From Carboxylicivirga marina (GTDB taxonomy: Bacteria > Bacteroidota > Bacteroidia > Bacteroidales > Marinilabiliaceae): DNA of 64,000 bases. Positions 22,023 through 32,658 of the stretch are shown here, one piece after another. How positions within the stretch are numbered: position 1 is the stretch's first letter; each line of letters starts with the position of its first letter. Made by a program: the position numbers and the translations under genes. The notes beneath the pieces are model-generated. The model saw only the letters and a list, made by a program, of their open reading frames with translations. It ran no database searches and was not told the DNA's origin. The stretch lies in assembly GCF_016612505.1 (NCBI RefSeq), contig NZ_JAENRR010000027.1, forward strand, positions 1-64,000. The letters are read 5' to 3'.

Positions 22023-23345
22023 ATGTCGAGTAAAAACAACAAGGTGTTGCCAATAGTAATGATGTTCTTTCTATTTGCAATGATTTCATTTGTTACTGGG
22101 TTGTCAAACCCAATGGGTGTAATTGCCAAAAATCAAGAAGGTATTCTTAACTGGATGTCGCAATTAGGAAACTTCGCTAACTTCTTGGCTTATTTGCTAT
22201 TAGGTTTGCCTTCAGGGATTCTGTTGAAGAAAAAAGGTTATAAATTTACAGCCTTAACAGCAATTGCACTTGGTATTTTTGGTGTAGGCGTTCAGTTGAT
22301 TTCCGGATTAATGCCATATGAAATTGGCGATAATTTCACACCAATCTTTTCTGTTTATCTTACCGGAGCATTGATTTCAGGTTTCTCAATGTGTATGTTG
22401 AATACTGTTGTTAATCCTATGCTAAACACTTTAGGTGGTGGAGGTAAAAAAGGAAACCAGTTAATTCAATTTGGTGGTTCATTAAACTCTATGGCTGCTA
22501 CTATAGTTCCTATTCTTGGGGGTTACCTAATTGGTGATTTAGCCAGAGCTACCATGAAAAATGCTGTTCCGGCATTATTAATTGCCATTGGTATTTTTGT
22601 TGCTGCTTTTATAGTATTAGCAATTGTCGCAATTCCTGAGCCTCATAACCGTGGAGTTGAAACTGAGAAAAAGAAAGAGAAGTTCAGTGCAATGTCATTC
22701 CGTCACTTCGTTTTAGGAACAGTTGCAATTTTCTTATATGTAGGTATTGAGGTAGGTATTCCAAACTTCATTAACCTGTTCTTAACAGCAGCAAAAGATG
22801 CAGCTGACGGAGCTGCAGGTATGGGTATTGATCCTGCAGCAGCGGGCTCGGTAGTAGGTACATATTGGTTCCTAATGTTAATAGGTCGCTTAACTGGTGG
22901 TATTCTTGGAAGTAAATTCTCAGCTAAAGCACAGTTGACTTTTGTTAGTACTTTGGGTATTGTTTTAGTCGGTCTTGGTATTTTCCTTCCGTCAAGTATT
23001 TCTGTAGGAATGCCTGTGTTTATGTCTGATTTAAGTTTTGGTATGCAAACTGTACCTCTAGCTGTAATGTTATTTGCACTTTGTGGTTTATGTACTTCTA
23101 TTATGTGGGGTGGAATTTTTAACCTTGCTGTAGAAGGAATTGGTAAATACACTGAGATGGGATCAGGTATTTTTATGGTAATGGTAGTTGGTGGTGGAGT
23201 ACTTCCATTGATTCAGGGTGCTGTTGCTGATATTACAGTTAGCTATATGGCATCATACTGGGTAATTGTAGCTGCATTGGTTTATTTGTTGTGGTATGCT
23301 CTTGCTGGTTGTAAAAACGTGAATACAGATATTCCAGTTGAATAA
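22023..23345 (+). CDS. Sugar MFS transporter, FucP/GluP-like
   Basis: 440 residues with twelve predicted membrane helices. FucP-family features include the N-terminal FVTGLSNPMGVIAKN, YLLLGLPSGILLKKKGYK between helices 2 and 3, CMLNTVVNPMLNTLGGGGKKGNQLIQFGGSLNSMAAT in helices 4-5, and GTYWFLMLIGRLTGGILGSKFSAKAQL in the second half. Family members import hexoses or N-acetylhexosamines with H+ or Na+. The ROK kinase 89 bp downstream suggests an unphosphorylated sugar (glucose, mannose or GlcNAc) is taken up and then phosphorylated. Starts at ATG 22023. Confidence 0.9.
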   Translation: MSSKNNKVLPIVMMFFLFAMISFVTGLSNPMGVIAKNQEGILNWMSQLGNFANFLAYLLLGLPSGILLKKKGYKFTALTAIALGIFGVGVQLISGLMPYEIGDNFTPIFSVYLTGALISGFSMCMLNTVVNPMLNTLGGGGKKGNQLIQFGGSLNSMAATIVPILGGYLIGDLARATMKNAVPALLIAIGIFVAAFIVLAIVAIPEPHNRGVETEKKKEKFSAMSFRHFVLGTVAIFLYVGIEVGIPNFINLFLTAAKDAADGAAGMGIDPAAAGSVVGTYWFLMLIGRLTGGILGSKFSAKAQLTFVSTLGIVLVGLGIFLPSSISVGMPVFMSDLSFGMQTVPLAVMLFALCGLCTSIMWGGIFNLAVEGIGKYTEMGSGIFMVMVVGGGVLPLIQGAVADITVSYMASYWVIVAALVYLLWYALAGCKNVNTDIPVE

Positions 23346-23367
23346 TTAAATGATAACGATATTTAAC

Positions 23368-23400
23368 ACCATGACTTCTTGTTATACAGGAAGTCATGGT
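23368..23400 (+). terminator. Hairpin between the MFS and ROK genes
   Basis: Perfect 11-bp arms ACCATGACTTC (23368-23378) and GAAGTCATGGT (23390-23400), with a weak tail TGTTTAAT. It may be a partial terminator or an mRNA-stability hairpin that lowers ROK expression relative to the transporter. Confidence 0.55.
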
Positions 23401-23434
23401 TGTTTAATGAATATTTTAACTAAAAACTAGTCAG

Positions 23435-24412
23435 ATGAAAAAAGTAGCTGTAGGTGTAGATATAGGCGGAACAAATACTGCCATTGGAATAGTTGATGAA
23501 ATGGGGCATGTACTATCAAAAGGTGGAATATCAACACCATCTCATGGTAATGTGGCTGTTTATATTCAGGATTTATCAGATGCTATCAATAAAATGATAA
23601 CCAATGTGAAGCTGACGAATGAAGATATTGAAATTGTCGGTATTGGTGTTGGTGCACCCAATGGAAATTATTATAATGGAACCATTGAATTTGCTCCAAA
23701 TTTATCTTTCGAAGGTGTGGTACACGTTGTTAAGCTCTTAAAAGAGAAGTTTCCGGAAATGGATGCTATTGCATTAACGAATGATGCAAATGCTGCTGCA
23801 ATTGGTGAAATGATTTATGGTGGTGCTAAGGATATGAAAAACTTCGTGATGTATACCTTGGGAACAGGAGTAGGTAGTGGAGTAGTGGTTAATGGTGATT
23901 TGGTTTATGGTCATGATGGTTTTGCCGGAGAGTGTGGTCACACTACATTAGTGCCAGATGGTCGTTTATGTGGATGCGGTGCTAAAGGACATTTAGAGGC
24001 CTACTGCTCGGCGCCAGGAATGAAGCGTACGGCTTTTGAGCTGTTGGCTAAATACAATGCAACAGATAGTCCATTGGCTAACCATACCTATAACGATTTA
24101 ACTTCTAAGATGATTTATGATGCAGCAGTCGCTGGTGATAAAGTGGCGCTGGAAGTATTTGAATTAACAGGTCATCATCTAGGTCAAGGTATTGCTGATA
24201 CGATTCATCACTTAAGTCCCGAAGCAATCTTCTTGTTTGGTGGACCTTTAGCTGCTGGAGATTTTATTATTAAGCCAACTAAGGCAAGTATGGAAGCGCA
24301 CTTGTTACCAATATTCAAGAATAAGATAAAATTACTACCATCTAATCTTGATGCCGGTGATGCTGCTATTGTGGGAGCTAGTGCTTTGGCCTGGAAAGAA
24401 CTTGATAAGTAA
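23435..24412 (+). CDS. ROK-family sugar kinase (glucokinase-like)
   Basis: 325 residues. The ATP-binding phosphate-1 motif is VDIGGTNTAIGIVD (8-21). The catalytic Asp lies in LTNDANAAAIGE, followed by GTGVGSGVVVNG. The zinc/ROK signature is ECGHTTLVPDGRLCGCGAKGHLEAY; His169, Cys179 and Cys181 are present, while the usual third Cys position holds His186. It phosphorylates a hexose at C6 in the cytosol. The lack of an N-terminal helix-turn-helix makes it a kinase, not a NagC-type repressor. Together with the MFS gene it forms a sugar-uptake pair ending in the terminator at 24436. Confidence 0.92.
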   Translation: MKKVAVGVDIGGTNTAIGIVDEMGHVLSKGGISTPSHGNVAVYIQDLSDAINKMITNVKLTNEDIEIVGIGVGAPNGNYYNGTIEFAPNLSFEGVVHVVKLLKEKFPEMDAIALTNDANAAAIGEMIYGGAKDMKNFVMYTLGTGVGSGVVVNGDLVYGHDGFAGECGHTTLVPDGRLCGCGAKGHLEAYCSAPGMKRTAFELLAKYNATDSPLANHTYNDLTSKMIYDAAVAGDKVALEVFELTGHHLGQGIADTIHHLSPEAIFLFGGPLAAGDFIIKPTKASMEAHLLPIFKNKIKLLPSNLDAGDAAIVGASALAWKELDK

Positions 24413-24435
24413 GTACATCTAATTGATATATGAGG

Positions 24436-24465
24436 AGGGAATTCATTTTGGATTCCCTTTTTTTT
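24436..24465 (+). terminator. Intrinsic terminator of the ROK gene
   Basis: AGGGAAT (24436-24442) pairs with ATTCCCT (24452-24458), followed by eight T residues. Confidence 0.8.
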
Positions 24466-24511: not shown

Positions 24512-25084
24512 ATGAGTAAGAAGCAGGTTATATATCAGGGTGCCATGGAATTGTTCGTAGAAAAAGGATTTGCAGCATCTGTAAACGAACTAATTGAGCG
24601 AGTGGGAATAGCAAAAGGAACGCTTTATCACCACATAACCAACAAGGAGCAACTGATTATTGAAATTTATAAGCAACTCATGTTTGAAGTTGAAGAGCAA
24701 TGTGTGAATATTTTGAATGAAGATCAAAAAGAAAATACAAAGCAAGTGTTTAGTCGTATTGTCAAGTGGTTCATTACTCATCCTGTTAAGTTTTATTATA
24801 TCAATATTTTTGAATCGAGCCCGTATATGAAGTTGCATTTTGAGTTAGTGGAGGATACCAAAGAGGGACCACGACGATTTATTATGCAAAAAGTAAATAT
24901 GGGGATATTGAAAGCATACAAAACAGATATGATCGCCTTCTTTGATTTTGCTTTTACTCGTGCTACCGCTAATTATTTTCTGTCACTTCCAAAGCCATTG
25001 AAATGCTTTGCTGATGAGTTCGACGCTGCTTTTGATATGTATTGGGATGGTGTTGCGCAAAAGCAATCATCTGTTGTGAAATAG
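24512..25084 (+). CDS. TetR/AcrR-family transcriptional regulator
   Basis: 190 residues. The N-terminal TetR DNA-binding domain (about 3-60) is clear: QVIYQGAMELFVEKGFAASVNELIERVGIAKGTLYHHITNKEQLI. The recognition helix is GIAKGTLYHHI. The C-terminal helical ligand domain (about 70-185) is not assignable to a subfamily. It probably represses its own promoter or the divergent or adjacent transport genes. A GACCTAATGGTC palindrome lies just downstream in the TonB-receptor promoter region. Starts at ATG 24512. Confidence 0.92.
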   Translation: MSKKQVIYQGAMELFVEKGFAASVNELIERVGIAKGTLYHHITNKEQLIIEIYKQLMFEVEEQCVNILNEDQKENTKQVFSRIVKWFITHPVKFYYINIFESSPYMKLHFELVEDTKEGPRRFIMQKVNMGILKAYKTDMIAFFDFAFTRATANYFLSLPKPLKCFADEFDAAFDMYWDGVAQKQSSVVK

Positions 25085-25225
25085 CGCTGTGCTGTGGTGT
25101 TGAGTTTGATGTGTTGTTGGTTAGGTTTTTGCCCTGTTGATAACTTATTAAAAAATGTTAATTACTTATTGGGGTTTTCTTAGTCTATTTTGAAGAATTA
25201 ACAGAATTTTAACATTTAGAAAACC

Positions 25226-25253
25226 GACCTAATGGTCTAGTTGTTCATCTTTG
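25226..25253 (+). promoter_or_regulatory. Candidate TetR operator and -7 box before the TonB receptor
   Basis: GACCTAATGGTC (25226-25237) has 4-bp arms GACC/GGTC, flanked by an offset AAC...GTT pair. CATCTTTG (25246-25253), one base off TAnnTTTG, follows 8 bp later. The receptor ATG is at 25317. A link to the upstream TetR gene is inference from position. Confidence 0.4.
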
Positions 25254-25316
25254 CAGCAAAATAAATAAGTATTAATAATTGGCAGACAGTATATATTACT
25301 AACCAAACACATCAAA

Positions 25317-27845
25317 ATGAAAAAACATGTATTAACAGCCGTGTGCTGTTCTTTAATGTTATTAAATGTTACAGCGCTTTTTGCACAAGGAAAAGTGACA
25401 GGTAAACTTATCGATGCAGATACAAATGAGGCGCTTATTGGAGCCGCAATTGTTGTCGAAGGAACTAGTATCGGTACAATTACAATGATTGACGGTTCAT
25501 ACACTTTGGATGTACCGGCACAAACCAACACCCTTCAATTTTCATATTTGGGTTACATCAACCAAACCAAAGAAATAATGGTTGGTGATGGACAAACGAA
25601 AGACCTTGGAGTTATAGCCTTGGCTCCAAATACTGTTGGTATTAATGAGGTGCTTGTTGTTTCTGCAATAGCAAGGGATAGAGAAACTCCAGTCGCTCTA
25701 TCTAACATAAAGCCTCAGCTTATTGAGGAAAAGATGGGATCGCAAGAATTTCCTGAATTGTTAAAATCAACACCATCAGTATATGCCACTAAAGGAGGTG
25801 GTGGATTTGGTGATTCCCGTATTACACTTCGTGGGTTTGACTCCAATAATATTGGTGTACTTATTAACGGTGTTCCAGTTAATGATATGGAAAGCGGAAA
25901 AGTTTATTGGTCTAACTGGGCTGGACTAAATGATGTTTTACACTCAGTTCAGGTACAGCGTGGTTTGGGTGCATCTCGTTTAGCACTTTCTTCTGTAGGT
26001 GGTACTAAAAATATTATAACAATTGCTACAGAAGCTGAAAAAGGAGGCTCAGCTTATGTTGGTATCGGTAATGATGGCCGTGTCAAACAATCTTTTACGG
26101 CTTCAACAGGTCTGCTAGATAATAATTGGGCCGTTACTGTTTCTGGAGCTCGTACCCAGGGAGATGGATATATAAAAGGAACAAGTTTTGATGCATACAG
26201 TTATTTCTTGAATGTATCTAAAATTATAAACGATGATCATCGAATTTCATTCACCGCTTTTGGTGCTCCACAATGGCACAATCAACGCGGATGGAAATCA
26301 TCAATCGAAACACTACGTAATCATCGTGATGGAAAACGTTACAATCCTAATGTAGGAGTTAGGGATGGTAAGTGGTATGGTGCAGGTTATGGATATAATG
26401 AATACCATAAGCCTCAAATGTCGTTAAATCACTATTGGAATATTAATGAGACTATGATGTTATCAACAGCTCTGTATGCTTCTTTCTCTCAGGGCGGTGG
26501 ACGTCGAATGGATGGAGATGGCGATGTAGCTGTAGGACCAGATGGGTATCGTGATTTTGATACAACAATTGCAGATAATGTTGCAAGTGGCACATCAAAT
26601 GTGGTTGAAGGTCTAAGTGTAAACCAGCATAATTGGTATGGTGTACTATCTACTTTAACAAAAACGGTAGGTAATATGAAAATAACAGGTGGATTTGACG
26701 GCCGATATTATGTTGGAGAACATTACAAAGAAATTACTGACTTATTGGGAGGACAGTACTTTTTAGATGATAATAATGTAAATCGTCCAGATAATACACC
26801 TCTTGTTGAGGGTGATAGATATTCATACCACAATGATGGTATAGTTAAATGGGCTGGGTTATTTGGTCAGGTAGAATATACGACTGAGCAATATTCTGCA
26901 TTTTTAACTGCAACCATTTCGCACAAAAATTACACTCGAATCGACTACTTTAACTACACGCCAGATAATCAGGAATCTGAGAGTTTAGGTTTTACACCTT
27001 GGAGTGTTAAAGGGGGATTTAACTACAATATCAATGAAAAGAATAATGTATACCTAAATGGAGGTTATTTTACGCGTTCGCCTTTCTTTAGAACTGCCTA
27101 CCTAAACTACACTAATGAAGTAAATAAAGATGCTAAATACGAACGTGTTTTATCTTTTGATTTAGGTTATGGTTATACGAGTCGTCGATTGAATGTTAAG
27201 TTTGGGGCATATTACACTAACTGGTTAGATAAAGGTTTGGTTAGAACTTTCTATGATCCTAACAGTGGTGATGATTTTGCAGCTAACATTCCTGGTTTGA
27301 ATGCCTTACATACAGGTGTTGAATTAGAAGTTACATGGAAACCAATAAATAAAATGGATGTCCATGGTATGTTCTCATTGGGTGAGTGGATATGGCAGGA
27401 TGATGTTGACTTTACATTGTTAGACGATGACCAAAATGTAATTGGAGAATATAAAGCTTATTTGAAAGATGTACATGTAGGTAATGCTGCTCAATTAACG
27501 GCTGCAGTTGGTGTCAATTATGAAGTATTGCCAAAATTAAAGCTTGGTTTTGATATTAATCATTATGGTAAAAACTTTGCCGATTTTAATCCAGTTAACA
27601 GAACTGATGCAAATGACACAAGTGATTCTTGGCAATTACCTGATGCTACCATACTCGATTTAAATTTCCGCTATGGATTTAAAATAGGTAGCCTTGATGC
27701 AAGTATATATGGTAATGTTAATAATTTGCTTAATGTAGATTACATTATTGATGCTGAAGATGGTGCTGACCATACAGCAGAGTCAGCTCTTGTGTATTAT
27801 GGTTTTGGAACAACTTGGGCAACAGGTTTAAAAATTAACTTTTAA
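25317..27845 (+). CDS. TonB-dependent receptor with carboxypeptidase-regulatory domain
   Basis: 842 residues. The signal peptide ends near LFAQ (23). A CarboxypepD_reg-like domain follows at about 25-115 (GKVTGKLIDADTNEALIGAA, then GSYTLDVP). The plug domain covers about 130-245 (PELLKSTPSVYATKGGGGFGDSRI, GVLINGVPVNDMESGKVYWSN, VQVQRGLGASRLALSSVGGT), and a 22-strand barrel runs to the C-terminal aromatic strand ending LKINF. Such receptors import substrates across the outer membrane with TonB-ExbBD energy. At 842 residues it is shorter than SusC proteins and there is no SusD neighbour. The following lipoprotein and T9SS nuclease suggest a nucleic-acid-derived or phosphate-rich substrate (inference). 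Confidence 0.93.
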   Translation: MKKHVLTAVCCSLMLLNVTALFAQGKVTGKLIDADTNEALIGAAIVVEGTSIGTITMIDGSYTLDVPAQTNTLQFSYLGYINQTKEIMVGDGQTKDLGVIALAPNTVGINEVLVVSAIARDRETPVALSNIKPQLIEEKMGSQEFPELLKSTPSVYATKGGGGFGDSRITLRGFDSNNIGVLINGVPVNDMESGKVYWSNWAGLNDVLHSVQVQRGLGASRLALSSVGGTKNIITIATEAEKGGSAYVGIGNDGRVKQSFTASTGLLDNNWAVTVSGARTQGDGYIKGTSFDAYSYFLNVSKIINDDHRISFTAFGAPQWHNQRGWKSSIETLRNHRDGKRYNPNVGVRDGKWYGAGYGYNEYHKPQMSLNHYWNINETMMLSTALYASFSQGGGRRMDGDGDVAVGPDGYRDFDTTIADNVASGTSNVVEGLSVNQHNWYGVLSTLTKTVGNMKITGGFDGRYYVGEHYKEITDLLGGQYFLDDNNVNRPDNTPLVEGDRYSYHNDGIVKWAGLFGQVEYTTEQYSAFLTATISHKNYTRIDYFNYTPDNQESESLGFTPWSVKGGFNYNINEKNNVYLNGGYFTRSPFFRTAYLNYTNEVNKDAKYERVLSFDLGYGYTSRRLNVKFGAYYTNWLDKGLVRTFYDPNSGDDFAANIPGLNALHTGVELEVTWKPINKMDVHGMFSLGEWIWQDDVDFTLLDDDQNVIGEYKAYLKDVHVGNAAQLTAAVGVNYEVLPKLKLGFDINHYGKNFADFNPVNRTDANDTSDSWQLPDATILDLNFRYGFKIGSLDASIYGNVNNLLNVDYIIDAEDGADHTAESALVYYGFGTTWATGLKINF

Positions 27846-27878
27846 TCATTAGCATTCAAACAACAATATTTTAAGAAC

Positions 27879-29030
27879 ATGAAAAACTTTGTATTATATA
27901 CATTAGCCCTGTTAGGATTGTTTGCAACAGCTTGTGATCCAATGGAAGATATCCATGCAGATATGGATAAAGAACTAATGGCTGAAAAGGAAGAGGCAGT
28001 ATTCTTTGCTCAATTTGAAAAAGCTCCTGAAGCACATGTATTAACTGATGCTGATTATGAGTTATCAAGCGATGAGGGCGTGAGGCAATATAAAAATTTC
28101 TCAAAGTATGCTGAGCCACAAGATTTCTTACCAGAAATTTTAAACAAGAGATTCACAGCGCCAAATACGACTGAAATGATGGTAACTTATAATTATTATG
28201 AGAAACCATTTGTTGACGAGGATAATGCCTACGAACTAGAAAGTGATGATTACACCGAAATGGGTCAGTATTACCCTAATTTTGATGATGAAGATGCGGC
28301 AGAGTATGCAATACCTATTTTCTTAAATGAAAAGTATAAGTACGAGAAAGTGGCTGTTGGAACACAACAAACTGTAAAGTATAACTTCTATCAATCGGCT
28401 CAATCTCGTTATTTGCGAGTAAACGATGATAATACAGTTGATGTTTTAGATTACGAAGGCGACGATTCATATGAGTTAGTTGATGCAGATTACGAGTCAC
28501 TGGGTAATGGCAATTACAATAATTTTTATAGTATCGAAGAAGCGCAAGAGAAAATAGTTACATTTTCAATAGAATCTGGTAAAGGTGCTGGAAACTATAC
28601 TTGTTTTGTTTATCGTAACTATTTTGATAGATATGTTGTGTGTCAGTTAGGAGATGAAGGTTGGTCTGAATTAAAAAGTGTAATGCCGGTAAGCGGAACT
28701 GTTGCATACAAGGTGGTTTCACCTGATTATACTCAAAGTTACTGGAAGTTTATGTTGCCACTTAAATTCGTTAAAGTAGACAAGGCTCATGAAGTTGAAT
28801 ACACTTTAACAGATGACGATTACGCATTGGTAGGCAATGGACAATATAAAAACTTCGATGTACGTGAAGGTAAGGGTGAAGAATCAGAAGAAGTTAGAAT
28901 TGAGAAAATTTCTACCATCTTGAAAGCTAACTTTGATGTTGTGGCTGGAGATGTATACAAAGTTCATTACAAAGTATACAATGGTCAGGCCGAAATGTGG
29001 GAAATCACACTAGAGGCTATTGAAGGATAA
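27879..29030 (+). CDS. Lipoprotein with four copies of a Y-x-L-DY-G-Y-NF repeat
   Basis: 383 residues. The SPII signal ends at FATAC (Cys19). The body is built from a repeated beta-rich unit: HVLTDADYELSS...YKNF (about 53-108), AYELESDDYTEMGQYYPNF (117-175), SYELVDADYESLGNGNYNNF (197-256) and EYTLTDDDYALVGNGQYKNF (307-378). Each unit is followed by a V-x-Y-x-Y/F strand. Similar units occur in Bacteroidota surface proteins next to nucleases (recollection of the family, not tested here). It lies 33 bp after the TonB receptor and probably acts as a surface partner of it. The protein is strongly acidic. Function is unknown beyond that. Confidence 0.7.
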   Translation: MKNFVLYTLALLGLFATACDPMEDIHADMDKELMAEKEEAVFFAQFEKAPEAHVLTDADYELSSDEGVRQYKNFSKYAEPQDFLPEILNKRFTAPNTTEMMVTYNYYEKPFVDEDNAYELESDDYTEMGQYYPNFDDEDAAEYAIPIFLNEKYKYEKVAVGTQQTVKYNFYQSAQSRYLRVNDDNTVDVLDYEGDDSYELVDADYESLGNGNYNNFYSIEEAQEKIVTFSIESGKGAGNYTCFVYRNYFDRYVVCQLGDEGWSELKSVMPVSGTVAYKVVSPDYTQSYWKFMLPLKFVKVDKAHEVEYTLTDDDYALVGNGQYKNFDVREGKGEESEEVRIEKISTILKANFDVVAGDVYKVHYKVYNGQAEMWEITLEAIEG

Positions 29031-29054
29031 CAAAGAATACAAGTTAAATAAACG

Positions 29055-29087
29055 AAAGCTACATGTTTATGTAGCTTTTGTTTTTTA
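29055..29087 (+). terminator. Intrinsic terminator after the repeat lipoprotein
   Basis: AAAGCTACAT (29055-29064) pairs with ATGTAGCTTT (29069-29078), a GTTT loop, then a T-rich tail. The nuclease gene begins 32 bp later, so it depends on read-through or on its own promoter. Confidence 0.85.
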
Positions 29088-29118
29088 AAACTAAATTTAA
29101 TCTATTAAGGATGATTTC

Positions 29119-30918
29119 ATGAGAACGTTTTTACGAGTATCGGTAGTACTGTGCTTGGTATTGCTTTTGTCTGGGCTAAACTCATTAGCTCAGGAACCTC
29201 CAACGACCCTTAATGGTGAGGCGTTAAAGCAGTGGTTGAAATCAAATTGGTATAGTGGCAAGCATAGTGAACTGGGTTATTCATTGGCTCGTCAAAAGAT
29301 GTATCAAAGTATAGACAATGACAATAACACCATAACTTGTGTATATTCTGGTTATGAGAAATCTTGGCAATCAACAAATACAAGTACAAACCCGGATCCG
29401 GTTAATTGTGAACATACGGTGCCACAAAGTTTTTTTGGCGAAGCAGAGCCAATGAGATCTGATATTCACCATTTATTTCCAACCTATGGTAGTTGGAATT
29501 CAGAGCGTTCAAACAATCCATTTTCCGAGATAAATGATGACCATACTACTCGGTGGATGTATGGTTCGAACTCACAGTCATCAAAACCATCTAGTAACAT
29601 TGATTATTATAGTGAATCAACAGGTTCAAGATTTGAACCTCGCGAAGATCATAAAGGAAACTGTGCCAGGGCTATTTTTTATTTTTATACTATGTATGCT
29701 TCTACTGTTGGTGATATTTCTTCGGTCGGTAATTTAAATACTTTATACCAATGGCACTTGAGCGACCCAGTTGATGCGGCCGAAATTTCTCGAAACGATG
29801 ATATTGAAACCTTTCAAGGTAACAGGAATCCATATGTCGACTATCCTGAACTCGTTGAAAGAGCTTTTATCAATTATACTTCAGGACCATTAGTGCCAAC
29901 AGTGTCTATCCAATCTAGTGAAACAGAGATTACTATCTCGTGGACCAATGTTGACAACGAAACAGGTTATAAGGTATATCGATCGACTGATAATATTAAT
30001 TTTTTTGAACTTGGTACGCTGGGAGTAGATGTCTTGCAATTTGAAGACCATTCTGTAGTTGGAAGTGCAAATTATTACTATTACGTAATTGCGTTCAATG
30101 GAGATGGGAATAGTGCTGAAAGCAATGTAGTTAGTGCAGCATTGCTTTGGAGTGGGGGTGGAGCCGATGATTTATTCTTTTCGGAATACATAGAAGGAGC
30201 TGCCTCAGATAAAGTGCTTGAAATATCCAACTTTACCGGTAGTGAGGTAGATTTATCAAATTATTCAATTAAAAAGCAGATAAATGGAGGAGGACTATGG
30301 ACAGATGAGTTGGTGTTGTCGGGGAGTATTGACAATGGCGATGTGTATGTGGTTTGTAATTCAGGTTCTTCAACTGCCATTAAATCTATAGCTGATTTAT
30401 TAACTGATTCATGGGCCTTAGGTTTTAATGGCAATGATCCGATTGGGCTGTTTAAGAATGGAACTTATATTGATGCAATTGGTACTTTTAATAATTCCTC
30501 TTTTTGGGGAGAAGATGTTACATTAGTTCGTAAATCATATGTTAATAGTCCATCCACTACCTTTAATGAAAATGATTGGGAGAGTAACAGCAAGGGTACT
30601 ATTTCTAATCTGGGCATGCACACCATGGATGCCCCAACTGATATTGATGATGAACTTTCTACGCCTTTAAAAATTAAAGTATACCCAATTCCGGCTAAGG
30701 ATAACTTAACGGTTGAAGTGTTGGGTAATGAAATTTTCAGGCAGGTAACGATAAGCCTTATTGATGTGACAGGAAAGGTGGTTTATTCAAAGCTTATTAA
30801 AGTAGGTGGAAGTGTAATTAGAAATGAGATGATTGCCAGTGGATTTAATCAAGGTATGTACTTTCTAAGGCTGGAAGTTGATGGAAAATTAGCTATTCGA
30901 AAAGTTATCATTCAATAG
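29119..30918 (+). CDS. Secreted endonuclease I with Fn3, lamin-tail and T9SS sorting domains
   Basis: 599 residues. Signal peptide 1-25. Endonuclease I (EndA/NucM) domain at about 30-255 with the active-site stretch VNCEHTVPQSFF (Glu98, His99) and SDIHHLFPTYGSWNSERSN (His117, His118, Asn in the metal site). A fibronectin III domain (about 258-342, ITISWTNVDNETGYKVYRS) follows, then a lamin-tail domain (about 350-480, DLFFSEYIEGAASDKVLEISN). A type IX secretion sorting domain closes the protein (about 520-599, KVYPIPAKDNLTVEV to YFLRLEVDGKLAIRKV). It should be exported to the cell surface and cut DNA/RNA outside the cell. Placed just after the TonB receptor and repeat lipoprotein. Confidence 0.92.
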   Translation: MRTFLRVSVVLCLVLLLSGLNSLAQEPPTTLNGEALKQWLKSNWYSGKHSELGYSLARQKMYQSIDNDNNTITCVYSGYEKSWQSTNTSTNPDPVNCEHTVPQSFFGEAEPMRSDIHHLFPTYGSWNSERSNNPFSEINDDHTTRWMYGSNSQSSKPSSNIDYYSESTGSRFEPREDHKGNCARAIFYFYTMYASTVGDISSVGNLNTLYQWHLSDPVDAAEISRNDDIETFQGNRNPYVDYPELVERAFINYTSGPLVPTVSIQSSETEITISWTNVDNETGYKVYRSTDNINFFELGTLGVDVLQFEDHSVVGSANYYYYVIAFNGDGNSAESNVVSAALLWSGGGADDLFFSEYIEGAASDKVLEISNFTGSEVDLSNYSIKKQINGGGLWTDELVLSGSIDNGDVYVVCNSGSSTAIKSIADLLTDSWALGFNGNDPIGLFKNGTYIDAIGTFNNSSFWGEDVTLVRKSYVNSPSTTFNENDWESNSKGTISNLGMHTMDAPTDIDDELSTPLKIKVYPIPAKDNLTVEVLGNEIFRQVTISLIDVTGKVVYSKLIKVGGSVIRNEMIASGFNQGMYFLRLEVDGKLAIRKVIIQ

Positions 30919-30943: not shown

Positions 30944-30970
30944 AAAGGCTGCTTTATGAAAGCAGCCTTT
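30944..30970. terminator. Bidirectional intrinsic terminator
   Basis: Perfect 12-bp stem AAAGGCTGCTTT / AAAGCAGCCTTT with an ATG loop, A/T tracts on both sides, between convergent genes. Confidence 0.93.
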
Positions 30971-30992: not shown

Positions 30993-32573
30993 TTAAAACT
31001 TCTCATCGTATTTTGTCCATAAATCATCGCCAAGCTTCCATGCCTCATTAACAACGCGATTGCCCCATTTAATGGTATAGCGGGTAAGGTGTGCTATTGT
31101 TTGCTTTCGTCCCATGCTCATAGCCGCAAGTTCAATGTCACGTTGTTGGTCAAATATCTCTTCCTGAAGTGGTAGAAAAACCTTATCTACATCGTGGCGT
31201 GCATCATTCCACCGAAGGCTGGCCAATGTACTCATGCGATTAAAGGCCCACCAGGCAGAATTACGATTAAAGCCATTTCGGCCAGGAGCTTTATATGAAG
31301 CAGGTAGATCTGATACGCTGCAATAAATCGGAATATAGACAGATGTAGCAATGTTATCTTGTGCCATCCATACCAACCCACCAATTTCATCTGGTAACCA
31401 GTCACGGCTTTGAGTGATGGTACCATACATGGTGTACCAGCGTGCAATGGTACGTTCACCTAATTTACCCCATCCGCCTTCAATATTATGGAGGTCATAT
31501 TTATCATACGGCATAAAAGGATTGGCGTATGGATGAGGAATGGTGTCGCCCTCTTCGGTTACTTTCTTTAAATGGCCAACCATATCATATGGTGTATGCT
31601 CATAATAATCTTTAAACACTTCAATCATTTTATGAAGCGTAACCTTTTCGTCTGGTTTAACCGAAAAAGGATAGTCTGTAGCTTCGGGATCTAAATCCAG
31701 CGAAGGGGCCATCATACTTAATGTGCGCCATTCGCGTCGTCGTGCCGCCATTGATTCGCGTCCTTCAGGAGCATACGCATAAGCAAAGCGAAATTTATCT
31801 TCTTCAGGATTCCACCAGGCACTGTCTTTGGCTAGTTCAAACAGATTGTCTGAATACATAAAGTTTTTGGTATCGGTTGTGTCTACTTCCAATATGCGTG
31901 CAGCGTTCGCATTTACGCTAACATGCTTGTCAGGAACGCGTTGTGCTACCCAAATAGCACCAACTTTTCCTTTTCCCGGGCCAACCATCTCCAGATGCCA
32001 AACTTCATTTTTATCGGCAATCGTCAGGCATTCTCCCCAATCGCGGTAACCATATTCTTTAGTCAGTTCATCGGCCATTTTAATAGCCTGACGTGCTGTT
32101 GTGCAGCGCTCAAGCATGAGTTGTATAAGTCGTTGGCAATCAATTAAACCTTCTTCCGAAACCAATGATTCGCGACCACCAAAGGTTGATTCACCAATGG
32201 CTAACTGTTTGGTGTTCATACAAGGATATGCCGAGTTTATAAAGCCATATGTATGCCTTACTTGAGGTATTTCACCAACTGGGGTGTGCTTGTAGGCTGG
32301 CATTTTACGCGAATCATCCTTTTCACGCGAATACATGGTTGCCTTATCTCGTCGCCCATGTTTTTGTGGCGGAGTAATATTCATCCACGAACGGGTTCTG
32401 TGACTATCATCTGTGTGAGAAGTCATCACGGAACCGTCAAAGCTGGCGTCTTTACCAACGGTTATTGTTGTACATCCTTCGGGTACGCCGCCTTCCCAAT
32501 CGGCTCTAATTTGTGAATTCAGCCACTGTGTGGTTCCCATCAACATGAGGGCAAGTGCAATATTTAATTTCAT
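30993..32573 (-). CDS. C69-family dipeptidase (first paralogue)
   Basis: 526 residues from ATG 32573. Signal peptide about 1-21 (ending WLNSQ). Peptidase C69 (PepD-like, Ntn-hydrolase) core: GGVPEGCTTITVGKDASFDGSVMTSHTDDS with the candidate N-terminal nucleophile Cys34, IGESTFGGRESLVSEEG, LTIADKNEVWHLEMVGPGKGKVGAIWVAQRVPDKHVSVNANAARI. These enzymes cleave dipeptides after self-processing. Here about 12 residues of propeptide lie between signal cleavage and Cys34. An alternative start nine codons upstream (32600) gives a less usual signal. Monocistronic, ending at the bidirectional terminator. A second, distinct paralogue lies at 50-52 kb. Confidence 0.9.
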   Translation of the reverse strand: MKLNIALALMLMGTTQWLNSQIRADWEGGVPEGCTTITVGKDASFDGSVMTSHTDDSHRTRSWMNITPPQKHGRRDKATMYSREKDDSRKMPAYKHTPVGEIPQVRHTYGFINSAYPCMNTKQLAIGESTFGGRESLVSEEGLIDCQRLIQLMLERCTTARQAIKMADELTKEYGYRDWGECLTIADKNEVWHLEMVGPGKGKVGAIWVAQRVPDKHVSVNANAARILEVDTTDTKNFMYSDNLFELAKDSAWWNPEEDKFRFAYAYAPEGRESMAARRREWRTLSMMAPSLDLDPEATDYPFSVKPDEKVTLHKMIEVFKDYYEHTPYDMVGHLKKVTEEGDTIPHPYANPFMPYDKYDLHNIEGGWGKLGERTIARWYTMYGTITQSRDWLPDEIGGLVWMAQDNIATSVYIPIYCSVSDLPASYKAPGRNGFNRNSAWWAFNRMSTLASLRWNDARHDVDKVFLPLQEEIFDQQRDIELAAMSMGRKQTIAHLTRYTIKWGNRVVNEAWKLGDDLWTKYDEKF

Positions 32574-32658
32574 TAGCAAAGCTTTTATCGAGATGTACAA
32601 AAATATAAAAATGAACGAGCAGTTTAGCTGTTTTATGGTCTTTTATGAAAACTACATA

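Follow-up and report, generated by a model that had tools for sequence, protein, structure and literature searches.

A receptor, a repeat lipoprotein and a secreted endonuclease I encoded side by side in Carboxylicivirga marina point to a possible uptake system for environmental DNA fragments

What does a TonB-dependent receptor bring into the cell when no SusD protein stands beside it and a secreted nuclease is encoded just downstream? The question is raised by a locus of Carboxylicivirga marina, which lies in a stretch of 64,000 nucleotides (contig NZ_JAENRR010000027.1, positions 1 to 64,000; hereafter the window). An initial annotation of this DNA had proposed that the nuclease makes oligonucleotides and the receptor imports them. 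The features of the locus are the following.

24432..24462, plus strand: terminator-like hairpin between the ROK-kinase and TetR genes (14-pair stem, T tail)
24512..25084, plus strand: TetR-family regulator that probably acts locally on the receptor operon (PF00440, 47.5 bits)
25223..25241, no strand assigned: probable TetR operator, with half-site ACCGACC, a 4-base spacer and GGTC, the right half being degenerate (from conservation)
25317..27845, plus strand: TonB-dependent receptor with an N-terminal carboxypeptidase-like domain and a plug (Pfam, AlphaFold, fold search)
27879..29030, plus strand: four-repeat partner lipoprotein, probably on the cell surface (downstream in relatives; model)
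29055..29078, plus strand: terminator hairpin closing the receptor-lipoprotein operon (hairpin scan, folding, recurrence)
29119..30918, plus strand: endonuclease I with a Lamin Tail Domain and a type IX secretion (T9SS) tail (Pfam, conserved residues)
29218..29850, plus strand: Endonuclease_1 domain, in which E98, H99 and N127 are the same in all 30 aligned neighbours
30166..30483, plus strand: Lamin Tail Domain of the nuclease, residues 350-455 (PF00932, 42.3 bits)
30679..30912, plus strand: Por_Secre_tail, the type IX secretion signal of the nuclease, residues 521-598 (PF18962, 41 bits)
30944..30970, listed on both strands: terminator-like hairpin after the nuclease (12-pair stem)

Comparison of the receptor with Pfam revealed CarbopepD_reg_2 (69.8 bits) and Plug (PF07715, 55.4 bits), each above its cut-off. 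Its AlphaFold model (pLDDT 83.7) was matched to a plugged barrel, the nearest solved folds being plugged TonB-dependent transporters with a best Foldseek E of 5.6e-44. The ligands of these nearest folds are siderophores, PQQ, haem, copper or cobalamin and include no polynucleotides, which counts against uptake of DNA; the fold search of the model says only that the protein should be a plugged transporter, and nothing more specific. With the SusC/RagA model TIGR04056 the receptor obtained 77.5 bits, where the cut-off is 368.25, and it therefore falls outside the SusC/RagA family. The next gene had no match in Pfam or NCBIfam, so the annotation as a TonB receptor without a SusD partner was sustained. 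A SusC/SusD glycan system was rejected on the same grounds, namely the low SusC/RagA score and the lack of a SusD next door.

The lipoprotein gene starts with an ATG at 27879, leaving 33 bp after the receptor stop at 27845, exactly the spacing that the initial annotation had given. Its product of 383 aa carries a lipobox-like stretch ahead of Cys19 and four repeats of the type 'Y.L.D.DY..G..Y.NF', both read from the sequence. It yielded zero matches at E <= 0.1 in Pfam and NCBIfam and was not recognised as a SusD partner, a PDB sequence search returned nothing useful, and a first contig scan with the lipoprotein as query confirmed nothing. The fold search of its model (pLDDT 82.3, pTM 0.59) gave no clear match either, with a best Foldseek E of 0.062 and a best Z of 4.9, a result that does not imply a novel fold. 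The Choice-of-anchor J proteins of an iron study were considered as possible relatives and set aside, since the accessible part of that paper (PMC10434189) offered no tie to the lipoprotein family.

Homologous loci were then collected with the lipoprotein as query in the family (71 genomes) and with the receptor in the order (149) and the phylum (395), plus a named collection. This gave 179 loci, made up of the window, 18 found via the lipoprotein, 80 mostly higher-scoring receptor matches and the best 80 of 589 from the named collection; when 7 with an identical receptor stretch were dropped, 172 distinct loci were left, some of them cut by contig ends (160 show two genes downstream). As controls, 40 receptors from 20 genomes were hand-picked among the highest-scoring Plug matches listed. 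Genes were ORF calls by our own script, and the enzyme profiles were grown from Pfam-verified seeds.

In the named collection, 71 of 80 loci have a related lipoprotein gene immediately behind the receptor gene and in the same orientation. Over the whole survey such a gene lay within two genes of the receptor in 116 of the 172 homologous loci versus 0 of the 40 control loci. The gap between the two genes was 60 bp or less in 106 of 113 cases. The receptor and the lipoprotein are thus a stable pair. Both are acidic: the window lipoprotein has a net charge of -41 and a pI of 4.29 (median 4.16 over 131 related lipoproteins), and the receptor has a pI of 5.11, the median for its family (5.33) being like that of the control receptors (5.16). 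In a sister clade of receptors described below, adjacent to EEP nucleases and DUF5689 proteins, the pI exceeds 8 in 12 of 20. The acidity of the lipoprotein and receptor would be poor for direct binding of DNA. As a separate observation, three Flammeovirga loci (L214-L216) hold a second receptor right behind the first pair, and a second lipoprotein was recognised in two of the three.

The initial annotation had also placed a terminator (29055) between lipoprotein and nuclease, allowing separate control. Such a separation of the nuclease proved right and recurs in relatives. The simple hairpin scan reported 29055-29078 on the minus strand only, and the plus-strand tail, TGTTTTTT, was read from the sequence; for the stretch 29031-29118, which includes the hairpin, the folding energy is -20.4 kcal/mol (z -4.65), a value that none of 200 shuffles reached. 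A hairpin was present in 17 of 17 lipoprotein-to-EndoI junctions, the window counted, versus 1 of 113 receptor-to-lipoprotein junctions, so that a terminator between lipoprotein and endonuclease I is more than chance. The same element occurred in 38 of 44 junctions between the lipoprotein and some other gene, and hence the hairpin belongs to the close of the receptor-lipoprotein operon and is not specific to the nuclease.

The third gene of the series matched its earlier description as an endonuclease I, with secretion by the T9SS predicted from its tail. Endonuclease_1 (PF04231) matched with 137.9 bits (cut-off 25), and the Lamin Tail Domain and the Por_Secre_tail listed above exceed their cut-offs of 34.3 and 27, the latter being the C-terminal sorting domain of T9SS cargo. 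No other protein of the host assembly (5.65 Mb) matched Endonuclease_1 at E <= 0.001. E98, H99 and N127, which were aligned in 30 of the 31 endonuclease I neighbours found in the survey, are presumably catalytic and metal residues. Among these 31 neighbours, 30 were scanned and all 30 had PF04231, 16 a T9SS tail and 3 DUF5689, and a lipobox-like motif stood near the N-terminus in 7 of the 31; the tails and motifs point to the cell surface. Larger arrangements were also seen. In L056 (11398-15027) a protein of 1210 residues behind the receptor-lipoprotein pair combines endonuclease I, an EEP nuclease and a T9SS tail, with a MAM match below cut-off, and L060 has an endonuclease I protein of similar size. 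Behind the window nuclease, on the opposite strand at 30993-32600, lies a Peptidase C69 gene with no evident link to it; in L037 this gene is kept at 90% identity, the nuclease at only 60%. Scans of the window for tRNA and Rfam families gave no match.

The idea that receptor and nuclease belong together would have failed if homologous receptors never stood with nucleases. They do: of the 172 receptors, 27 have an endonuclease I gene no more than two genes away and 15 an NPP phosphodiesterase gene, compared with 0 of 40 controls in either case (p 0.0023 and p 0.038, in Fisher tests that ignore the shared ancestry of the loci). By the same test EEP nuclease (7 of 172 versus 0 of 40, p 0.23) and 5'-nucleotidase (2 of 172 versus 0 of 40, p 0.66) were not significant alone, and any of the four families together reached 48 of 172 versus 0 of 40 (p 9.8e-6). 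Within five genes the counts were 56 of 172 and 1 of 40. The remaining 124 of the 172 loci had none of the four families within two genes of the receptor. Downstream endonuclease I genes on the same strand, within two genes, occurred in 22 loci, for example in Carboxylicivirga, Christiangramia, Maribacter, Leeuwenhoekiella and Marinoscillum. On the receptor tree (160 loci, 27 with endonuclease I) the state changed at least 19 times, gains and losses being undistinguished. A nucleic-acid link of the receptor loci is therefore supported as more than chance in this survey, and it spans classes of the phylum. In the host genome itself (C153, locus L163), an EEP nuclease was noted within five genes of an unrelated control receptor of 751 aa, beside a protein of 474 aa that weakly matches Beta_helix.

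These counts also bear on a simpler proposal, that the nuclease alone clears biofilm or matrix DNA and the adjoining receptor takes an unrelated ligand. The separate transcription of the nuclease, with a hairpin at every lipoprotein-EndoI junction, fits this proposal, as do the 145 of 172 loci in which no endonuclease I lies within two genes. The recurrent association of the receptor with four enzyme families argues the other way, and so do three loci (L077, L078 and L081) in which an endonuclease I with a T9SS tail replaces the lipoprotein and follows the receptor directly, after 63, 32 and 10 bp and without a terminator. DUF5689 was found in the L077 enzyme (47.6 bits, above cut-off), scored 21.3 against a cut-off of 28.6 in that of L078 and was lacking in that of L081. 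Overall we hold a stand-alone matrix nuclease to be quite improbable. Locus L077 (5091-16598) is unusual in another respect, having three consecutive endonuclease I genes behind the receptor (734 aa, 687 aa and, in a gene that is cut, 824 aa) and a lamin-tail-like protein preceding.

The region upstream of the receptor offered a different clue. The TetR gene and its operator were absent from the initial annotation. Of the 99 first-survey loci, 11 have a TetR of the window's cluster no more than five genes from the receptor, always directly upstream. ACCGAC stood upstream of the receptor in 11 of these 11 (shuffles in 2-base blocks: mean 0.12, maximum 3 of 11), and the fuller operator motif in 10 of 11 versus 0 of 156 receptor loci without TetR. 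Perfect copies of ACCGACCNNNNGGTC numbered two in the host assembly, the window copy and one on contig C173, and GACCNNNNGGTC occurs once in the window, ahead of the receptor. When up to one mismatch was allowed, the operator pattern had 20 matches in the host genome versus 76 for the reversed pattern that served as control. We therefore ascribe the 18 sites with one mismatch to chance and propose no larger regulon; one of them, on contig C124 near the host's 5'-nucleotidase-domain match, was treated likewise. Judged from this conservation, TetR most likely controls the receptor operon locally via the palindrome at 25223-25241. Endonuclease I was present in two of the 11 TetR-bearing loci (the window and L037) and NPP in L026, and the other eight had no nucleic-acid enzyme in view, which counts against DNA foraging.

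Further upstream, at 22023-24412, the window encodes an MFS transporter and a ROK kinase; in the host's family either this pair or galactokinase and aldose epimerase precede the TetR-receptor-lipoprotein unit. In L024, L037 and L040 galactokinase- and epimerase-type genes replace MFS/ROK, as in a swappable hexose module before the TetR-receptor unit. A putative glucose-6-phosphate isomerase gene lay within five genes upstream in 12 of the 99 first-survey loci, of flavobacterial type. The labels GalT, glucose-6-phosphate isomerase, TrpB and NadB/NadC are presumptive readings of the sequences. From such neighbours it could be argued that the receptor imports a sugar or sugar-phosphate, the hexose genes being its real partners and the nuclease a bystander. 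Once the leading idea, this was demoted to a rival by the terminator, the operator and the neighbour survey: a terminator-like hairpin parts the ROK gene from TetR, GACCNNNNGGTC is unique in the window and the operator has a single other perfect copy in the genome, no glycosidase or SusD was detected by Pfam among the ten window neighbours scanned, and control receptors show no link to nucleic-acid enzymes within two genes. The hexose genes upstream notwithstanding, import of a sugar now appears decidedly doubtful to us.

Receptors beside EEP nucleases and DUF5689 proteins were compared with the window receptor in a tree. In a quick IQ-TREE search (LG+G4; controls as outgroup, with long-branch warnings among them) they formed a clade of 13 rows (support 100) whose sister group is the window clade, with 30 rows (99); both stood apart from 18 controls, the support values being SH-aLRT only. 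The rows comprised 30 of 99 family loci, 9 of 20 DUF5689 loci, 4 EEP-adjacent second receptors and 18 of 40 controls. Sister-clade members were receptors beside DUF5689 proteins in family f122, which we infer to be Weeksellaceae-like, and receptors beside EEP nucleases in other genomes; 35 genomes had a match, and 20 of these supplied the 20 DUF5689 loci. The window receptor scored 296 bits with the sister-clade profile, where no control receptor matched at E <= 1e-20. Of the 20 f122 loci fetched, 18 have an EEP gene next to the receptor gene, and the profile of the window lipoprotein family matched 12 of the 20 partner proteins there. In 13 of the 172 loci, those of Christiangramia and Maribacter among them, the two receptor types are no more than six genes apart, with EEP always beside the sister type.

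This kinship raises the prospect that receptor and lipoprotein, as a paralogue of the Riemerella pair RA0C_RS04915/RS04920, import DNA across the outer membrane for natural transformation, and that the neighbouring nuclease trims or nicks the DNA for uptake. According to the accessible part of PMC8459023, RS04915 is a carboxypeptidase-domain outer-membrane protein in which three transposon insertions brought transformation below detection, and it is listed together with RS04920 (DUF5689, DUF5017) as essential for natural transformation in Riemerella; these insertions silenced RS04920 too, which counts against the proposal. The tonBA and tonBB mutants transform less, as stated in the part of PMC8383284 drawn on here, which speaks for the proposal; that the authors there ascribe the tonBB effect to iron speaks against it. 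The proposal gains from the Riemerella-like layout with EEP in the sister clade, from the 13 loci with both receptor types, from a DUF5017 match above cut-off in 3 of the 10 relatives of the lipoprotein that were scanned, and from ComEC in the host, although ComEC is common (10 of 14 control genomes). It loses from the position of the window receptor outside the sister clade, from a window lipoprotein with no Pfam match to DUF5689 or DUF5017, from a host genome without a DUF5689 match, and from the local TetR gene, which we judge unusual for competence. A role in transformation is unlikely for this locus, yet it ranks as the chief rival to DNA foraging, because the sister receptor clade shows the layout reported as essential in Riemerella.

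Uptake of nuclease-released DNA fragments for nutrition, that is, nucleic-acid foraging, remains our preferred reading of the locus, with a probability of roughly 0.52; that the substrate of the receptor is a nucleic acid of some kind is likely. The pairing of receptor, lipoprotein and nuclease, repeated in some relatives from other branches of the phylum, suggests a system taking up pieces of environmental DNA. The T9SS-exported endonuclease I would cut environmental DNA at or outside the cell surface; its family, conserved active-site residues and export tail are seen, and activity and location are what they predict. The lipoprotein, a surface partner seated on the receptor, would capture or gate the fragments, which the receptor, driven by TonB, may carry into the periplasm. 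Receptor and lipoprotein form one operon ending in the terminator, under probable TetR control at 25223-25241, and the nuclease is a separate transcription unit. The use is most likely nutritional, with DNA as a source of carbon, nitrogen, phosphorus or nucleosides. The foraging reading draws support from Lutibacter, a member of the Bacteroidota that incorporated carbon from 13C-DNA in marine sediment (PMC8289736, accessible part), taken with the receptor-lipoprotein pair of Lutibacter litoralis (L221), which has none of the four enzymes within five genes. The acidic lipoprotein and receptor, the separate unit of the nuclease, the 124 loci without an enzyme and the upstream hexose genes all count against it.

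In a wider frame, the two sister receptor-partner clades might, tentatively, be a widespread nucleic-acid import machinery of the Bacteroidota outer membrane, in which the window clade (with endonuclease I or NPP) feeds on DNA fragments, the EEP/DUF5689 clade brings in DNA for transformation, and both descend from a single TonB-driven DNA importer that takes the place of the type IV pilus route. The accessible part of PMC8289736 counts Bacteroidota as potentially some of the most important degraders of DNA in marine sediments, and our literature search returned no identified outer-membrane importer of polynucleotides or their fragments in Bacteroidota beyond the Riemerella model. If the receptor-lipoprotein pair is such an importer, it provides a testable gene pair with loci from Carboxylicivirga to Christiangramia and Porphyromonas, and DNA feeding would be tied to natural transformation via a shared ancestor.

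Among known systems, SusC/SusD resembles the window locus in its TonB-dependent receptor with an N-terminal carboxypeptidase-like domain and an adjoining lipoprotein gene, and differs in the SusC/RagA score, the SusD protein and the glycosidases that are lacking here among ten neighbours. Riemerella anatipestifer RA0C_RS04915/RA0C_RS04920 (PMC8459023, accessible part) likewise places a partner protein after a carboxypeptidase-domain outer-membrane receptor, and its receptor plus DUF5689 protein resemble the sister clade's order of EEP nuclease, receptor and DUF5689, a match of layout and not of sequence. The window receptor belongs to the other clade, its lipoprotein has neither the DUF5689 nor the DUF5017 of the Riemerella partner, and its neighbour is an endonuclease I with a T9SS tail instead of an EEP nuclease. 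Cells of Ca. Izemoplasmatales are not known to have an outer membrane. Their putative DNA-degradation loci, as far as described in the accessible part of PMC8289736, also set nuclease genes beside import genes, there ABC transporters, and include one protein that joins nuclease and lamin-tail domains like the window nuclease. The solved members of the Endonuclease I family (PDB 1ouo, 1oup, 2pu3, 2g7e, 2vnd) share with that nuclease the family match and the conserved Glu-His and Asn, to which the window enzyme adds a Lamin Tail Domain and a T9SS tail.
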